A stretch of DNA of 64,000 bases from Clostridiales bacterium (GTDB lineage Bacteria; Bacillota; Clostridia; Christensenellales; Borkfalkiaceae): positions 1 to 64,000 of the forward strand of contig SVIW01000008.1 of NCBI GenBank assembly GCA_015069295.1, in the 5' to 3' direction. Shown piece by piece: positions 13,975 to 55,175 of the stretch. Under the pieces are notes generated by a model. It did no database searches and had not been told where the DNA came from. It saw only the letters and a list, made by a program, of their open reading frames with translations. The stretch's first letter is position 1, and every line of letters starts with the position of its first letter. The position numbers and the translations under genes are program-made.

Positions 13975-14480
13975 AGCCTGCCTTAGCTTAGGATTGCTTG
14001 GCTAAAAAACCCGCTTTGCGGGTTCTTTTTTTTATCATTGCGCTCAGCTTGCTATGTGGCAAGTCCAAAAAGGCGCCCCTGTGCAAGGGGAGCTGCCCGT
14101 GTAACGGGCTGAGGGGTTGTCTATTTCTTGTAGGGGAGGATAGTATCCTCCCGCAACTTTCCACACTCCGTAAGTAACGCCGTAAGGCGACGGAAAGATA
14201 GATAAGACTGGATGCATCCCGCGTTGCGTCATTGCGAGGCGTTCGCCGCGGCAATCTCTTGCGAATAACTCTCTCCCTCAGTCGCTTTGCGACAGCTCCC
14301 TCGTCAGCGGGAGCCATATAAAGCCTTCCTCTGATGAGGAAGGTGGATTTTTGCGGAGCAAAAAGACGAAAGGAGAGAAAACGTTCCGTTGCTTTGTCTG
14401 TCATTGCGAGGCGTTAGCCGTGGCAATCTCCTGAGATTACTTCGCTTCGCTCGTAATGACGGGCGAGGTGGTAAAATTTT
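13975..14480. repeat. Intergenic mosaic of REP/BIME-like and composite repeat modules
   Basis: Contains tcattgcgaggcgtt[c/a]gccg[c/t]ggcaatctc twice (the second closed by ctcgtaatgacg), gatagataagactggatgcat, ctccctcagtcgctttgcgacagctccctc and cccctgtgcaaggggagctg modules. Confidence 0.7.
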
Positions 14481-15690: not shown

Positions 15691-18141
15691 ATGATACAGA
15701 CGAATGAAATTTTGGAAAAATTAAACGAAGAACAGATAAAACCCGTCCTGCAAACGGAGGGCGCGGTGCTCGTTTTGGCGGGCGCGGGGAGCGGGAAAAC
15801 TCGTGTTTTGACTTCGCGTATCGCCTATCTTATCGAAGAAAAGGGCGTGCCCGCAAGCGCAATCCTTGCGATTACCTTTACTAACAAAGCCGCCAACGAA
15901 ATGAAGGAGCGGCTTTCTAAAATCGTGGACGTTTCTTCCTCGTGGGTGTGCACGATCCACAGTATGTGCGTGCGCATTTTGCGAATGTACGCGGCAGAGG
16001 TGGGCATACAGCAGAATTTTTCCATTTACAGCGAAACCGAACGCAATAACATCATCAAAAAATCCTTTCAAGAATGCGATTTTGACGATGAAAAGCTGTT
16101 AAAACAGGTAAAATACCATATCGGGAATGCGAAAATGTTAGGCTTTTCGCCCGAGCGTTACGCCGAAGAATACGCCTTTGAAGAGGAGATTGACGAAATC
16201 GTCAAGGTATATACCCGCTATCAAAAGCATTTGCACGAAAACAATGCGCTCGATTTTGACGACTTGTTAAACGAAACGCGCAACCTTTTGCGCACAAGCG
16301 ACGAGGCGAGGGAGTACCTTGGCGGGCGGTTCCGCTATATTCTCGTGGACGAGTTTCAAGACACCAACGCCGTGCAATACGAAATCGTGCGGTATCTTGC
16401 GTCCGTGCACGGGAACTTGTTTGCCGTGGGCGACGACGACCAGTCCATTTACGGCTGGCGGGGTGCGAAGATTGAGAATATTTTGCACTTTGAAAAGGAT
16501 TTTAAAAATGCGAAAGTCTTTAAATTAGAGCGCAACTACCGCTCGACGAAGAATATTTTAAAGCTTGCGAACACCGTTATCAAAAACAACGGCAGGCGCA
16601 AGAAAAAGACTCTTTGGACGGAAAACGAAGAGGGTGCGCCCGCCAAGGTGCACGAGGCGGAAGAGGAAAGCGGCGAGGCGAGATTTATCGCGCACACGAT
16701 TGCGGGGCTGATGCAGCACGGCTACAAATTTTCCGATTTTGCGATTTTGATGCGGCTGAACGCCTTGACCCGTTCTTTCGAACAAGAGTTTACTTCGGAC
16801 GGGATTCCCTACAAAGTGTTCGGGGGCTTTAAGTTCTTCGAACGGAAGGAAATCAAGGACCTGCTTGCCTATTTGCGGCTGATTAACAACCCGTTCGACA
16901 GCGAGGCGGCGCTGAGGATTATCAATTTCCCCAAGCGGGGCATCGGGGCGAAAACGGTGGAAACTCTGCAAAATTACGCCTTTGAAAACGAGGTTTCCGT
17001 GTACGACGCGCTTCTCGATTTGGACGAAATCGGCTTTACGGGCGCAACGAAGGAAAAGCTGAGCAATTTCCGCAATCTTGTGAAAAACTGGATTCTCGAC
17101 AGCCTCGATTTGCCCGTCAACGAGCTGGTGAAAAAGATTGTCGAAGATACCCGTATGCGCCAGGCGTACGCAGACGATTCGGACGAGAGTATCAACAAGC
17201 GCGCGAACATTGAAGAATTTATCAATTCCGTAGAAGAATATTGCCGGTTAAACCCCGGGGTTGGACTTACCGATTATCTCAATCAGGTAACCCTTTCTTC
17301 CGATACCGACGAGATGGACGACAGCAATTACGTTACCCTCGCAACCGTACATTCGGTCAAGGGGCTGGAATTTAAGTGCGTGTTCGTTTGCGGCTTGGAA
17401 GAGAACATTCTTCCCGTTTCCCGCGCCGTCGGCGACGAAGAGGATATGGAAGAGGAAAGAAGATTGATGTACGTAGCCATTACCCGCGCGAAAGAGAGAT
17501 TGTACCTTACCCGCTCGAAGAGCCGTTATTTGTACGGCAAGCGCGAACCGACGATGCGTTCGAGGTTTTTAAAAGAACTCTCTTCCGAACTGGATATGCC
17601 GCAGGAAACCCGCCGTCCCACGTTTTCCTATCGGGACGATTATGACGAGGACGAGGGGGGCAGGTACGAGACGAACGACGATTACGGCGACAGAAGGAAT
17701 AGCTATGGTGGGGGCTCGTATGGCTCGTATGGTTCGTATGGTTCGCACAATTCTTATAATTCGTACGGGGCGCGTTCGTCCTATTCGTCTTATTCTTCGC
17801 AAAGTTCCTATTCCCGTTCTTCGAACAATTCGTACGGGGGAACTGGCGGGTACGGCGGGTATGGGAGTTCGTCCTACGGCTCGTACGGCACGCAGAAGAA
17901 AAACGAGGGGGTTGCGTACGGCGGCGCAAGCAAGCTGAAAAAGACCTTATCGCCGACGGCGGCAAAAGATTTGTCCGCTTTCCAAATCGGCAAAAAAGTG
18001 CGCCATCCGAAGTTCGGCGACGGTATGATTGTCGGCGTGCGCGGCACGGGCAGTAATATGATTCTCGATATCGCCTTCGAGGGGTTGGGGATAAAGCAAT
18101 TATCCGCCTCCCTCGCCCCTTTGACGGTTGGCAACGTATAG
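15691..18141 (+). CDS. pcrA: UvrD/PcrA-type ATP-dependent DNA helicase with Tyr/Ser/Gly-rich low-complexity insert
   Basis: 816 aa; AGAGSGKTRVLTSRIAYLI, ILVDEFQDTNAVQYEI, GDDDQSIYGWRGA, VHSVKGLEFKCVFV, MYVAITRAKERLYL. Confidence 0.95.
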   Translation: MIQTNEILEKLNEEQIKPVLQTEGAVLVLAGAGSGKTRVLTSRIAYLIEEKGVPASAILAITFTNKAANEMKERLSKIVDVSSSWVCTIHSMCVRILRMYAAEVGIQQNFSIYSETERNNIIKKSFQECDFDDEKLLKQVKYHIGNAKMLGFSPERYAEEYAFEEEIDEIVKVYTRYQKHLHENNALDFDDLLNETRNLLRTSDEAREYLGGRFRYILVDEFQDTNAVQYEIVRYLASVHGNLFAVGDDDQSIYGWRGAKIENILHFEKDFKNAKVFKLERNYRSTKNILKLANTVIKNNGRRKKKTLWTENEEGAPAKVHEAEEESGEARFIAHTIAGLMQHGYKFSDFAILMRLNALTRSFEQEFTSDGIPYKVFGGFKFFERKEIKDLLAYLRLINNPFDSEAALRIINFPKRGIGAKTVETLQNYAFENEVSVYDALLDLDEIGFTGATKEKLSNFRNLVKNWILDSLDLPVNELVKKIVEDTRMRQAYADDSDESINKRANIEEFINSVEEYCRLNPGVGLTDYLNQVTLSSDTDEMDDSNYVTLATVHSVKGLEFKCVFVCGLEENILPVSRAVGDEEDMEEERRLMYVAITRAKERLYLTRSKSRYLYGKREPTMRSRFLKELSSELDMPQETRRPTFSYRDDYDEDEGGRYETNDDYGDRRNSYGGGSYGSYGSYGSHNSYNSYGARSSYSSYSSQSSYSRSSNNSYGGTGGYGGYGSSSYGSYGTQKKNEGVAYGGASKLKKTLSPTAAKDLSAFQIGKKVRHPKFGDGMIVGVRGTGSNMILDIAFEGLGIKQLSASLAPLTVGNV

Positions 18142-20460
<2,319 letters not shown>

Positions 20461-25017: not shown

Positions 25018-25372
25018 AGAAACTGCGTGTAAGGGCGCATCTTGAAACAAAAACGGAACCTGCCCTTGCTCGTTTACGACTTGTAAACTCCCGTCGGGGT
25101 ACTCGTTTCTTCTCGTCTTGCTCGTATCTAATCCGTTTCGTGTAACCGTGTGGTGGTTTAGTTGAAAAACACAACCTGCCAAATAGTCGGTTACATTAAA
25201 ATTTTCGAAAAGATAGAAAAGACTGGATGCAACGGAACGTTGCCTGCAACCCTTCTCCACAGTTTCGTGTAACTATTCGGTAACACCGCAGAACGACGGA
25301 GCGATAGAAAAGACTAGATGCAACGGAACGTTGCCTGCAAGCTCAGCTTGCCGAATTTTATTTAGGTGTTTT
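25018..25372. repeat. Composite intergenic repeat block between def and fmt
   Basis: gatagaaaagact[g/a]gatgcaacggaacgttgcctgcaa occurs twice (25212, 25303); hairpins at 25229-25243, 25320-25334, 25337-25351; apical hairpin gtttacgacttgtaaac. Confidence 0.8.
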
Positions 25373-28719: not shown

Positions 28720-29030
28720 GTGGGCAGAAAAAAAGAGATTGCCGCGGCTAACGCCTCGCAATGACGGCTTTGTTGAAATACGAGATTTGATAAATAATTA
28801 GTTGTATTAAAATCTTCGGAAAGATAGACAAGACTGGATGCAACGGCACGTTGCCGTCTTATCCGCAAAAACAGAACCTGCCCTCAGTTGCGTACTACTT
28901 GTACGCGCCTATCGGGCAGAACCGTGTGTTTTGCGGCAATACGACGCACTCTCCGCGTTCGAGTGGAGCAAATTTAAGTCGCGTATAGTCCGATATCTTA
29001 TCCGCAAAAACAGATACGAAAACACGCAAA
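28720..29030. repeat. Composite intergenic repeat block between rlmN and rpe
   Basis: REP-like agattgccgcggctaacgcctcgcaatgacgg, gatagacaagactggatgca (28823), hairpin 28840-28854, nested hairpin 28863-28936. Confidence 0.8.
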
Positions 29031-29047: not shown

Positions 29048-29701
29048 ATGAAAAATATTAAAATTGCGCCGTCTATTTTGTCGGCAAACTTTGCGAAAAT
29101 GGGCGAAGAAGTACAATCGTTAGAGGCGAGCGGCGCAGACGTCGTGCATTGCGACGTGATGGACGGCGTGTTCGTCAATAATATTACCTTTGGGATTAAA
29201 ATGGTAGAGGATATCCGCAAAATGACCACTCTGCCCCTCGATTGCCATTTGATGATCGTGCATCCCGAAAAATACGTCGAACGCTTCGCTAAGGCGGGCG
29301 CGGATATCATTACCGTACACTACGAAGCTTGTCAGGACAACTTGAAAGAGGTGTTAGAGCTTATCAAATCAACGGGCGTAAAATGCGGTGCGGTTATCAA
29401 TCCCGACACTCCCGTAGAAAAAATAAAAGAGATAATTCCCCTTTGTGATATGGTGCTTGTGATGAGCGTATTCCCCGGCTTTGGCGGACAGAAGTTTATT
29501 CCGTCGGCGCTCGATAAACTGAAAGAAATTCGCGCGATTATCAGCGAGCTTGGAAAAGAGATCGATTTGGAAATCGACGGCGGCGTAACGGCGGAAAACG
29601 TCGAGGAAATCAAGGCGGCGGGCGCAAACGTCATCGTCGCCGGCAGCGCGGTGTTTAAGGCACCCGATAGGGCGGCTATGATTGCGGCTTTGAAGGCGTA
29701 A
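29048..29701 (+). CDS. rpe: Ribulose-phosphate 3-epimerase
   Basis: IAPSILSANFAKMGEEV, HCDVMDGVFVNNITFG, MSVFPGFGGQKF, EIDGGVTAEN. Confidence 0.95.
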   Translation: MKNIKIAPSILSANFAKMGEEVQSLEASGADVVHCDVMDGVFVNNITFGIKMVEDIRKMTTLPLDCHLMIVHPEKYVERFAKAGADIITVHYEACQDNLKEVLELIKSTGVKCGAVINPDTPVEKIKEIIPLCDMVLVMSVFPGFGGQKFIPSALDKLKEIRAIISELGKEIDLEIDGGVTAENVEEIKAAGANVIVAGSAVFKAPDRAAMIAALKA

Positions 29702-29928
29702 ACGGTTTATATACGTCGCATTTCGGCGTTGCGGCTTGGTTTTTGGCGGTTTCGTTGTAACACCGCGGGGCGACAGAAGGATAGAAAAGACTGGATGCAA
29801 CGGAGCGTTGCCCGTTTCGTTAAGCTACTCGGTAGTTTAGTTGAAAAATGCAACCTGCCAAACGGTAGGTTGCATTAAAATTTTCGGAAGGATAGAAAAG
29901 ACTAGCTGCAAGATTATCTTGCAACGCA
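29702..29928. repeat. Composite intergenic repeat block after rpe
   Basis: aaacggtttatatacgtcgcatttcggcg at the stop codon; gatagaaaagact twice (29780, 29891); hairpins 29797-29811 and 29908-29922. Confidence 0.8.
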
Positions 29929-41323: not shown

Positions 41324-42538
41324 ATGTTAAAACAGATACAAGGCGGCGTATGTGCCGCAAGCGGGTTTACCGCAAACGGGATTCATTGCGGGATCCGTAA
41401 AAATAAAACGAAACGGGATTTGGCGTTGATTTACAGCCAGTTTCCTGCAACGGCGGCGGCGGTGTATACGCAAAACCTCGTCAAGGGCGCGCCGTTGACG
41501 GTAACGAAAAATAATATCGAAGACGGCAAAGCGCAAGCGGTGATTTGCAACAGCGGCAACGCCAATACCTGCAATGCAAACGGGATTGAAATCGCCGAAC
41601 AAACCTGCGCGCTATTGGCGGAAAAATTGGGGATTTCCCCCAAAGACGTCGTAGTGGCATCGACCGGCGTTATCGGTCAGCCTTTGGATATCACGCCGAT
41701 TGCAAACGGGATTCCCGCGCTCGTAGACGGGCTTGGCGCGCATAGCGATTATGCCTGCGAAGGGATTATGACGACGGACACTCGCAGCAAGGAAATTGCT
41801 TTCGAATTTACGGTGGGCGGTAAGGTTTGCCGTATCGGCGGTATCGCAAAGGGCAGCGGTATGATCCATCCGAATATGGCGACGATGCTCGTGTTCGTAA
41901 CAACCGACTGCGCGATTTCGGCGAAAATGCTGCAAAAGGCGCTCTCCGAGGACGTCAAAGATTCGTTTAATATGATTAGCATTGACGGCGACACTTCGAC
42001 CAACGATATGCTTTCCGTGCTTGCCAACGGCGCGGCTGGGAATAGCGAAATCGTGGAAGAAAACGAGGACTATTTTGCGTTTAAAAAGGCGCTTAGCGCG
42101 GTAACGACGGATTTGTGTCGCAAGATAGCGGGCGACGGCGAGGGCGCGACGAAGCTGCTCGAATGTAAAGTAACGGGCGCGAAGACGGAAGCGGCGGCAA
42201 AGACGGTGGCAAAATCGGTAATTTGCTCCTCTCTTTTCAAAGCGGCGATGTTCGGCGCGGACGCAAACTGGGGGCGGGTGCTTTGTGCTATTGGGTACAG
42301 CGGCGCGGACGTGGACGTGCAAAAGGTCGGCGTAGAATTCCGCTCGAACAAAGGAACGATTAGCGTTTGTCAACAGGGCGCGGGCGTGCCTTTCTCGGAG
42401 GAAAAAGCCAAAGAAATCCTGTTGGAAAAGGAAATAGAAGTTTTGATTTCGCTCGGCGACGGCGAGGGAAAAGCGGTTGCTTGGGGCTGCGATTTGACGT
42501 ATGATTATGTGAAGATTAACGGCGATTATCGCACGTAA
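41324..42538 (+). CDS. argJ: Bifunctional glutamate N-acetyltransferase/amino-acid acetyltransferase
   Basis: AVYTQNLVKGAPL, VICNSGNANTCNANG, GGIAKGSGMIHPNMATMLVFVTTD. Confidence 0.95.
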   Translation: MLKQIQGGVCAASGFTANGIHCGIRKNKTKRDLALIYSQFPATAAAVYTQNLVKGAPLTVTKNNIEDGKAQAVICNSGNANTCNANGIEIAEQTCALLAEKLGISPKDVVVASTGVIGQPLDITPIANGIPALVDGLGAHSDYACEGIMTTDTRSKEIAFEFTVGGKVCRIGGIAKGSGMIHPNMATMLVFVTTDCAISAKMLQKALSEDVKDSFNMISIDGDTSTNDMLSVLANGAAGNSEIVEENEDYFAFKKALSAVTTDLCRKIAGDGEGATKLLECKVTGAKTEAAAKTVAKSVICSSLFKAAMFGADANWGRVLCAIGYSGADVDVQKVGVEFRSNKGTISVCQQGAGVPFSEEKAKEILLEKEIEVLISLGDGEGKAVAWGCDLTYDYVKINGDYRT

Positions 42539-42870
42539 GAAACGGCTTATATACGTCGCAATACATTGTCAAACTTTACGTTTTGCCTCGTTACGTACGC
42601 CAATGTACGCGCCTCGGCAAAGCCGCAGTTTTCCTCGTCTTGCTCGTATCTAACCCGTTTCGTGTGGCTGCTCGGTAATTGGTTAAAATACGCAACCTGC
42701 CGAATAGTTGGTTACATTAAAATTTTCGAAAAGATAGATAAGACTAGCCGCAAGATTATCTTGCTGCAACGGCACGTTGCTCGCAGTACGGCGGAAGGAT
42801 AGAAAAGACTAGTTGCAAGATTATCTTGCTGCAACGGCACGTTGCCCGTTTCGTGTAACCGAGAGATTAA
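42539..42870. repeat. Composite intergenic repeat block between argJ and argB
   Basis: aaacggcttatatacgtcgca after the argJ stop; covarying hairpin 42582-42621; gatagataagact (42733) and gatagaaaagact (42798); hairpins 42750-42764, 42766-42780, 42815-42829, 42831-42845. Confidence 0.85.
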
Positions 42871-43757: not shown

Positions 43758-44215
43758 AAGAAACGGTTTATATACGTCGCATTTCGGCGAAGAAACGGTG
43801 TATAAGGGCGCACCTTCGGGTAAAAACGGTATTCGCCTCGCTCGTTTACGCGCAGTAAAGTCGCATCGGCGAAGCTTCCGTGTTTTACCCAAATCTGCAA
43901 CCCTTCTCCACAGTTTCGTGTAACCGAGCGGTTACGTACGCCCAGTACGCGCCTGTCGGGCAGAACCGCGTATTTTTTTCCAATTTGCAACCCTTCTCCA
44001 CAGTTTCGTGTAACCGAGCGGTTACGTACGCCCAGTACGCGCCTGTCGGGCAGAACCGCGTATTTTTTTCCAATTTGCAACCCTTCTCCACAGTTTCGTG
44101 TAACCGAGCGGTAGTTTTGTTGAAAAGCGAAACTTGCCAAATGGTTGGTTGTATTAAAATTTTCGGAACGATAGACAAAACTCGATGCAACGGCACGTTG
44201 CAATTCCGAATTAAA
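43758..44215. repeat. Composite repeat block between argB and argD, with a 90-bp tandem repeat
   Basis: taaccgagcggttacgtacgcccagtacgcgcc... recurs at 43921, 44011 and (partial) 44101; nested hairpin 43818-43890; hairpin 44187-44201. Confidence 0.9.
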
Positions 44216-54891: not shown

Positions 54892-55175
54892 CTGTCATTA
54901 CGAGCGAAGCGAAGTAATCTCTTGAGATTGCCACGCTACGCTCGCAATGACGGTTTCGTTAAAATACGCAACCTGATAAATAGTTGGTTTCATTGAAATT
55001 TTCGGAAAGATAGACAAGGCTGCCTGCAAGCTCAGCTTGCCACGGCTAACGCCTCGCAATGACGGTTTCGTTAAAATACGCAACCTGATAAATAGTTGGT
55101 TTCATTGAAATTTTCGGAAAGATAGACAAGGCTGCCTGCAAGCTCAGCTTGCCACGGCTAACTCCTCGCAATGAC
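54892..55175. repeat. REP-like inverted repeat followed by a 112-bp tandem duplication
   Basis: Near-identical units 54942-55053 and 55054-55165 (single g/t difference near the end), flanked by tcattacgagcgaagcg...cgctcgcaatgacgg. Confidence 0.95.

Follow-up and report, generated by a model that had tools for sequence, protein, structure and literature searches.

The window, a 64,000-nucleotide stretch of a Clostridiales contig, carries a gene for a PcrA helicase whose motor and RNA polymerase-docking modules are separated by an unusually long linker rich in tyrosine, glycine and serine. The features of the gene are as follows.

15691..18141, plus strand: pcrA coding sequence, 816 aa (Pfam, NCBIfam, Foldseek to PcrA 3pjr)
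15721..16506, plus strand: UvrD/Rep helicase N-terminal domain, residues 11–272 (PF00580, E=2.5e-90)
16522..17520, plus strand: UvrD-like C-terminal motor domain (UvrD_C), residues 278–610 (PF13361, E=1.9e-78)
17611..17964, plus strand: disordered linker, the whole Tyr/Gly/Ser-rich tether, residues 641–758 (AlphaFold2, genus-wide linker)
17701..17889, plus strand: SYG-rich core of the linker, residues 671–733 (14 Tyr, 13 in [G/S]Y[G/S] context)
17713..17745, plus strand: tandem DNA array of the 9-bp unit GGCTCGTAT, 3.7 copies, 95% match
17905..17940, plus strand: GVAYGGASKL region, the form taken in this genome by GGFTYGGVGK, a motif conserved at the linker end across the genus (alignment)
17986..18126, plus strand: PcrA/UvrD Tudor domain, residues 766–812, the RNAP-docking module (PF21196, E=2.5e-15)

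TIGR01073, the NCBIfam pcrA model, is the best NCBIfam match at 767 bits, below its curated cut-off of 911 bits, and Foldseek aligns the motor with that of Geobacillus PcrA (3pjr) at a TM-score of 0.91 normalised by target, both of which bear out the original assignment to PcrA. The SF1 motifs AGAGSGKT and DEFQDT are present and the invariant residues are kept in the alignment, as in an SF1A helicase. Downstream of pcrA lies a ligA-like NAD-dependent DNA ligase gene (18487–20460, named from sequence). A dispersed repeat fills the pcrA–ligA gap (18142–18500); its pieces of about 30–140 bp, at 72–95% identity, occur in many copies in the window, near 14190, 25048–25358, 28817–28955, 29700–29837, 42538–42817 and 43759–44108. 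A tandem array at 43892–44112 (90-bp unit, 2.5 copies, 99%) overlaps this repeat family, and another lies at 54928–55175 (112-bp unit, 2.2 copies, 97%).

The AlphaFold2 model, built from an alignment of 29 sequences, is confident in the motor and Tudor domains, while linker residues 641–758 have a pLDDT below 50 at every position (block means 27–38) and no secondary structure except a two-residue bridge. In characterized PcrA, a disordered linker joins the motor to the RNA polymerase-binding Tudor module (PMC5397179, PMC8318588). Based on the Pfam domain bounds, the predicted disorder and the superposition on 3pjr, the SYG-rich stretch is, as modelled, the expanded centre of this normal linker between the UvrD motor and the Tudor domain. 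The original prediction had the frame, coordinates, peptide and tyrosine count right, and it correctly placed the stretch where PcrA ordinarily has its linker. It described a segment between the UvrD core and a C-terminal tail; the segment does follow UvrD_C, but its other side is the folded PcrA_UvrD_tudor domain, and the SYG core that it delimited sits within a larger disordered linker. The term insert is better replaced by expansion of an existing linker, and neither a domain insertion nor homology to FUS was supported by the Pfam and PDB-chain searches. Domain order, motor fold and the GIK lysine of the Tudor domain (K802, conserved in our alignments) match those of Bacillus and Geobacillus PcrA/UvrD, and the genome's own RpoB has the docking motif. 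In contrast, the linker is about 118 residues long and Tyr/Gly/Ser-rich here, and short and unremarkable in composition in those proteins; in Geobacillus PcrA, about 15 residues separate the parts that align as motor and as C-terminal region.

Codons 17701–17892 encode 14 tyrosines, of which 13 lie in [G/S]Y[G/S] context, and Tyr, Gly and Ser together make up 53 of the 64 residues. Across 1113 open reading frames of at least 100 codons in a 362-kb sample of the same genome (about 22% of it), the next-best 64-residue stretch contains two [G/S]Y[G/S] motifs and the next-highest tyrosine count is 11. With no other reading frame exceeding two motifs in the 362 kb, a proteome-wide SYG habit of the organism is not supported. 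A whole-genome search with the SYG stretch returned, besides PcrA, a single insignificant match (E=0.29). The SSB of this genome has an ordinary acidic DDDSDIPF tail and no SYG domain, and its Rho-like protein has no long low-complexity insert. That protein (L169, G000:C1:39139-40113), the only Rho-like one found in the genome, scores 198 bits against a curated Rho cut-off of 509; its reading frame runs for 509 codons without a stop, and it may be a divergent Rho or a Rho-like ATPase. At the DNA level, tyrosine codons in the linker are mixed (11 TAT and 8 TAC) and five serine codons are in use. The 9-bp array is the sole clear tandem DNA array in the stretch, the remainder being codon-diverse.

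Comparison with relatives places the linker in a defined lineage. Absence from sister strains had been named as an observation that would count against the feature; instead, all 36 genomes examined of the genus that includes Candidatus Scatosoma, this window's included, carry the linker, with 111.5 ± 9.7 residues, 13.5 ± 2.4 tyrosines (12.1%), 23% Gly and 16% Ser. The full-length protein occurs in most same-genus genomes among 61 whole genomes, and close named relatives (motor identity at least 71%) also have the linker; the named relatives include deer, sheep and chicken gut metagenome assemblies. Linkers in the family's other genera are intermediate (75 aa, 10.4% Tyr; 28 genomes, a nearly complete draw), and those in other families of the order average 52.8 aa and 1.7 tyrosines (22 genomes). 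Each genus linker averages a net charge of +5.4 and 4.6 [F/Y]GG patches, compared with +3.0 and 0.05 in the other families; this genome's linker has four such patches, repeated within its disordered region. Searching 398 further genomes of the phylum with the linker gave no match at E ≤ 1e-5, by a method that discounts biased composition and can miss shorter Tyr-rich linkers. A feature common to Bacillota is not supported by this search. Some members of family f14 have Gly/Tyr-rich linkers and some of f28 have Asn/Tyr-rich ones, these being mostly top matches rather than frequency estimates. In the f28 relatives L123, L126 and L146, the PcrA linkers are rich in Asn, Tyr and Ser, for example NNYNGYNKYNNSNNYNKY. 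Read as linkers in which tyrosine is kept and the spacer residues differ, the f28 set is an independent comparison.

Tyrosines per linker range from 9 to 19 in the genus, and this genome is its extreme, with 19 (16%), 13 flanked on both sides by Gly or Ser, and the most SYG-rich copy. The genus linker holds several recurring motifs within a broader Y/G/S composition, and the segments DDPESYGNSAY and RSxWxG, kept by most relatives, are lost here. As such, the composition is unusual outside the lineage, as first proposed, but what the genus conserves is a broader Y/G/S linker, and the SYG-pure form occurs in this genome alone. The label prion-like does not fit in the Q/N sense, with 1.4% Gln and 5.1% Asn in the pooled genus linkers.

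The tyrosines of the linker appear to have evolved differently from the Ser and Gly around them. Codon changes were counted by parsimony on the motor-domain tree, and the ratios given here are raw counts rather than rate estimates. The 13 linker columns dominated by Tyr record 35 nonsynonymous and 86 synonymous changes, a ratio of 0.41, compared with 75 and 147 (0.51) in 28 core Tyr columns, although the linker alignment is uncertain and the placing of Tyr on Tyr by multiple alignment inflates apparent conservation. The corresponding ratios are 1.41 in the linker versus 0.45 in the core for Ser columns, and 0.68 versus 0.33 for Gly columns. Twenty-three of the 35 nonsynonymous changes stay within Tyr, Phe and Trp. 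No change from Tyr to Cys or His, each one transition away, is seen in the eleven most conserved linker columns, and in the pooled linkers Cys is absent and His makes up 0.1%. The aromatic residues of the linker thus appear, from these codon counts, to show a signature of purifying selection and to be held about as tightly as core tyrosines. Tandem DNA arrays occur in 11 of the 36 linkers, with units of 9, 12, 15, 18 or 24 bp depending on the species. Together, the differing units, the drift of Ser and Gly and the constraint on Tyr suggest turnover by slippage with the aromatic residues held. Constrained tyrosines among drifting Ser and Gly are a stickers-and-spacers signature, which makes pure repeat-expansion noise unlikely; as a sole cause, such noise is rejected given the presence of the linker in all 36 same-genus genomes and the seemingly constrained Tyr columns. 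Since natural selection seemingly keeps its tyrosines, the arm probably does something.

Several known systems resemble this linker in part. The tyrosine content of 12–16% matches the 12.6% (27 of 214 residues) of the FUS IDR (PMC5704491), the tyrosines lie in [G/S]Y[G/S] context within predicted disorder as in FUS/EWS-type domains, and replacement of Tyr by Phe is tolerated in evolution here and by experiment in FUS (PMC5704491). The FUS/EWS likeness put forward in the original prediction thus holds for tyrosine density and context, but does not extend to homology with solved FUS/EWS segments: no PDB chain of FUS, EWS or TAF15 was matched, which is weak evidence because phmmer discounts biased composition. 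Unlike FUS/EWS, the segment has few Gln, is shorter and is an internal linker rather than an N-terminal domain. The repeated Tyr/Phe-Gly-Gly patches recall the F/YGG motif of hnRNPA2, another nucleic-acid-binding protein with such patches in predicted or known disorder (PMC9067507), although here the host is a bacterial DNA helicase; both this likeness and that to FUS/EWS are known from sequence alone. Rho of the gut bacterium Bacteroides thetaiotaomicron is also a conserved nucleic-acid motor that gained a lineage-specific IDR (PMC10284900, PMC13269538); its IDR consists of KE-rich and Q/N-rich subdomains and is not Tyr-based, and condensation has been demonstrated for that Rho. Closer in taxonomy, two Lachnospiraceae Rho proteins, also helicase-type motors from Clostridia, have a disordered segment with tandem Tyr-containing repeats (YQSRGD, RNYQD; PMC10284900), but the protein and the unit are different.

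We favour, at roughly even probability, a lineage-expanded flexible tether that binds weakly and multivalently through its aromatic residues, most likely to DNA or RNA at the transcription complex. The tether would consist of aromatic stickers (Tyr, sometimes Phe or Trp) separated by Gly/Ser spacers, and its net charge is slightly positive. The Tudor domain would dock on a TGE-type motif in the RNA polymerase beta subunit. The B. subtilis helicase interaction motif is VDPETGEIL (PMC8318588), and the RpoB of this genome carries VVNPETGEII, with N in place of the published D; a D-x-x-T-G-E pattern therefore misses it, and it was recognized in the RpoB sequence itself. From this anchor, the long tether would extend the motor's reach to nucleic acid around the transcription complex, and the Tyr-Gly patches may add weak, multivalent, non-specific contacts to ssDNA or RNA, possibly also to other PcrA or RNAP tails. 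Through such contacts, and with no need of a fixed fold, avidity for R-loops or exposed template strands would rise locally, with units gained and lost by in-frame slippage and selection holding the number of aromatic residues roughly constant. Precedent exists for the separate steps: suppression of R-loops by PcrA depends on the Tudor domain, itself carried on a disordered linker (PMC8318588, PMC5397179), and RNA and DNA binding is documented for a disordered Tyr/Gly region, in which Y-to-F substitution preserves the binding of RNA and Y-to-A abolishes it (PMC9067507). The latter is a region of a human protein with a weak affinity of 31 uM (PMC9067507). Against the tether model we count UvrB (L171, G000:C11:94363-96294), which reads VEALTGNKL and so is without the interaction-motif Glu needed in B. 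subtilis, whereas RpoB keeps TGE; the partner choice of the Tudor domain may therefore differ in this lineage.

The same tyrosines could instead act as the stickers of a condensate. On this account, which we regard as improbable though still credible, PcrA would form liquid condensates with RNA or RNAP, which the SYG linker would drive or take part in; the helicase would thereby gather at highly transcribed loci or during starvation, much as the IDR of B. thetaiotaomicron Rho acts. In tyrosine density and in its [G/S]Y[G/S] context the linker matches the FUS IDR; there, phase separation is set by the number of tyrosines rather than their position and Phe can replace Tyr (PMC5704491); in keeping with this, tyrosine number is steady across the genus while much else changes, and Rho provides a gut-bacterial case of a conserved nucleic-acid motor that gained a condensing IDR (PMC10284900, PMC13269538). 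Phase separation of FUS through [G/S]Y[G/S] tolerates Tyr-to-Phe exchange (PMC5704491), so that the tolerance observed here suits condensation stickers as well as nucleic-acid contacts and sequence by itself cannot choose between the two. However, each linker has 9–19 tyrosines versus 27 in the FUS IDR, and no partner-type SYG domain was found in SSB, the Rho-like protein or elsewhere in the genome searched. Cells are expected to contain little PcrA, which makes homotypic separation unlikely without co-scaffolds and counts against this account. Net charge, the [F/Y]GG patches on each chain and the expected scarcity of PcrA favour contact with nucleic acid over self-driven droplets; autonomous condensation is possible. 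A bolder form would have one clade of gut Clostridia convert its housekeeping PcrA into a sticker-and-spacer helicase of the FUS type, forming condensates with nascent RNA and RNA polymerase at R-loops by means of a bacterial, independently evolved [G/S]Y[G/S] domain selected for aromatic number, not exact sequence, and we consider it unlikely.

A passive spacer, for which length and solubility suffice and whose SYG composition would be noise left by slippage where the protein tolerates it, seems to us rather unlikely. It would account for the species-to-species differences in tandem units, the fast turnover of Ser and Gly and the disappearance from this genome of segments conserved in most of the genus, and PcrA elsewhere functions with much shorter linkers. 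It sits poorly with Tyr columns that look as constrained as those of the folded core, with aromatic-for-aromatic exchange and the near absence of Cys and His, and with the recurrence of tyrosine richness on other spacers in f28 and f14. A hub of short linear motifs docking specific proteins is very unlikely, since, although DDPESYGNSAYGGGRY is found in 28 and RSxWNG in 26 of the 36 genus members and GGFTYGGVGK also in most, two of the three are lost here while tyrosine content is kept and enlarged, AlphaFold gives no local order in the linker and no candidate partners are known.

The tether with weak aromatic contacts, our preferred reading, bears on a feature for which we found no precedent, as a Tyr-rich low-complexity linker in PcrA/UvrD is not reported in the limited open-access literature consulted. 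Bacteroides Rho already shows that a conserved nucleic-acid motor can gain an IDR; what is new is a lineage-specific, apparently selected FUS-like linker in PcrA. Few proteins underlie research on bacterial condensates, and [G/S]Y[G/S] domains are usually treated as eukaryotic. Dozens of species in this lineage vary in the number and placement of tyrosines in a housekeeping helicase that is widespread in bacteria, and short-linker outgroups are available. They provide a natural experiment for asking if the aromatic stickers of a bacterial IDR adjust how a helicase is recruited to RNA polymerase and how R-loops are removed.
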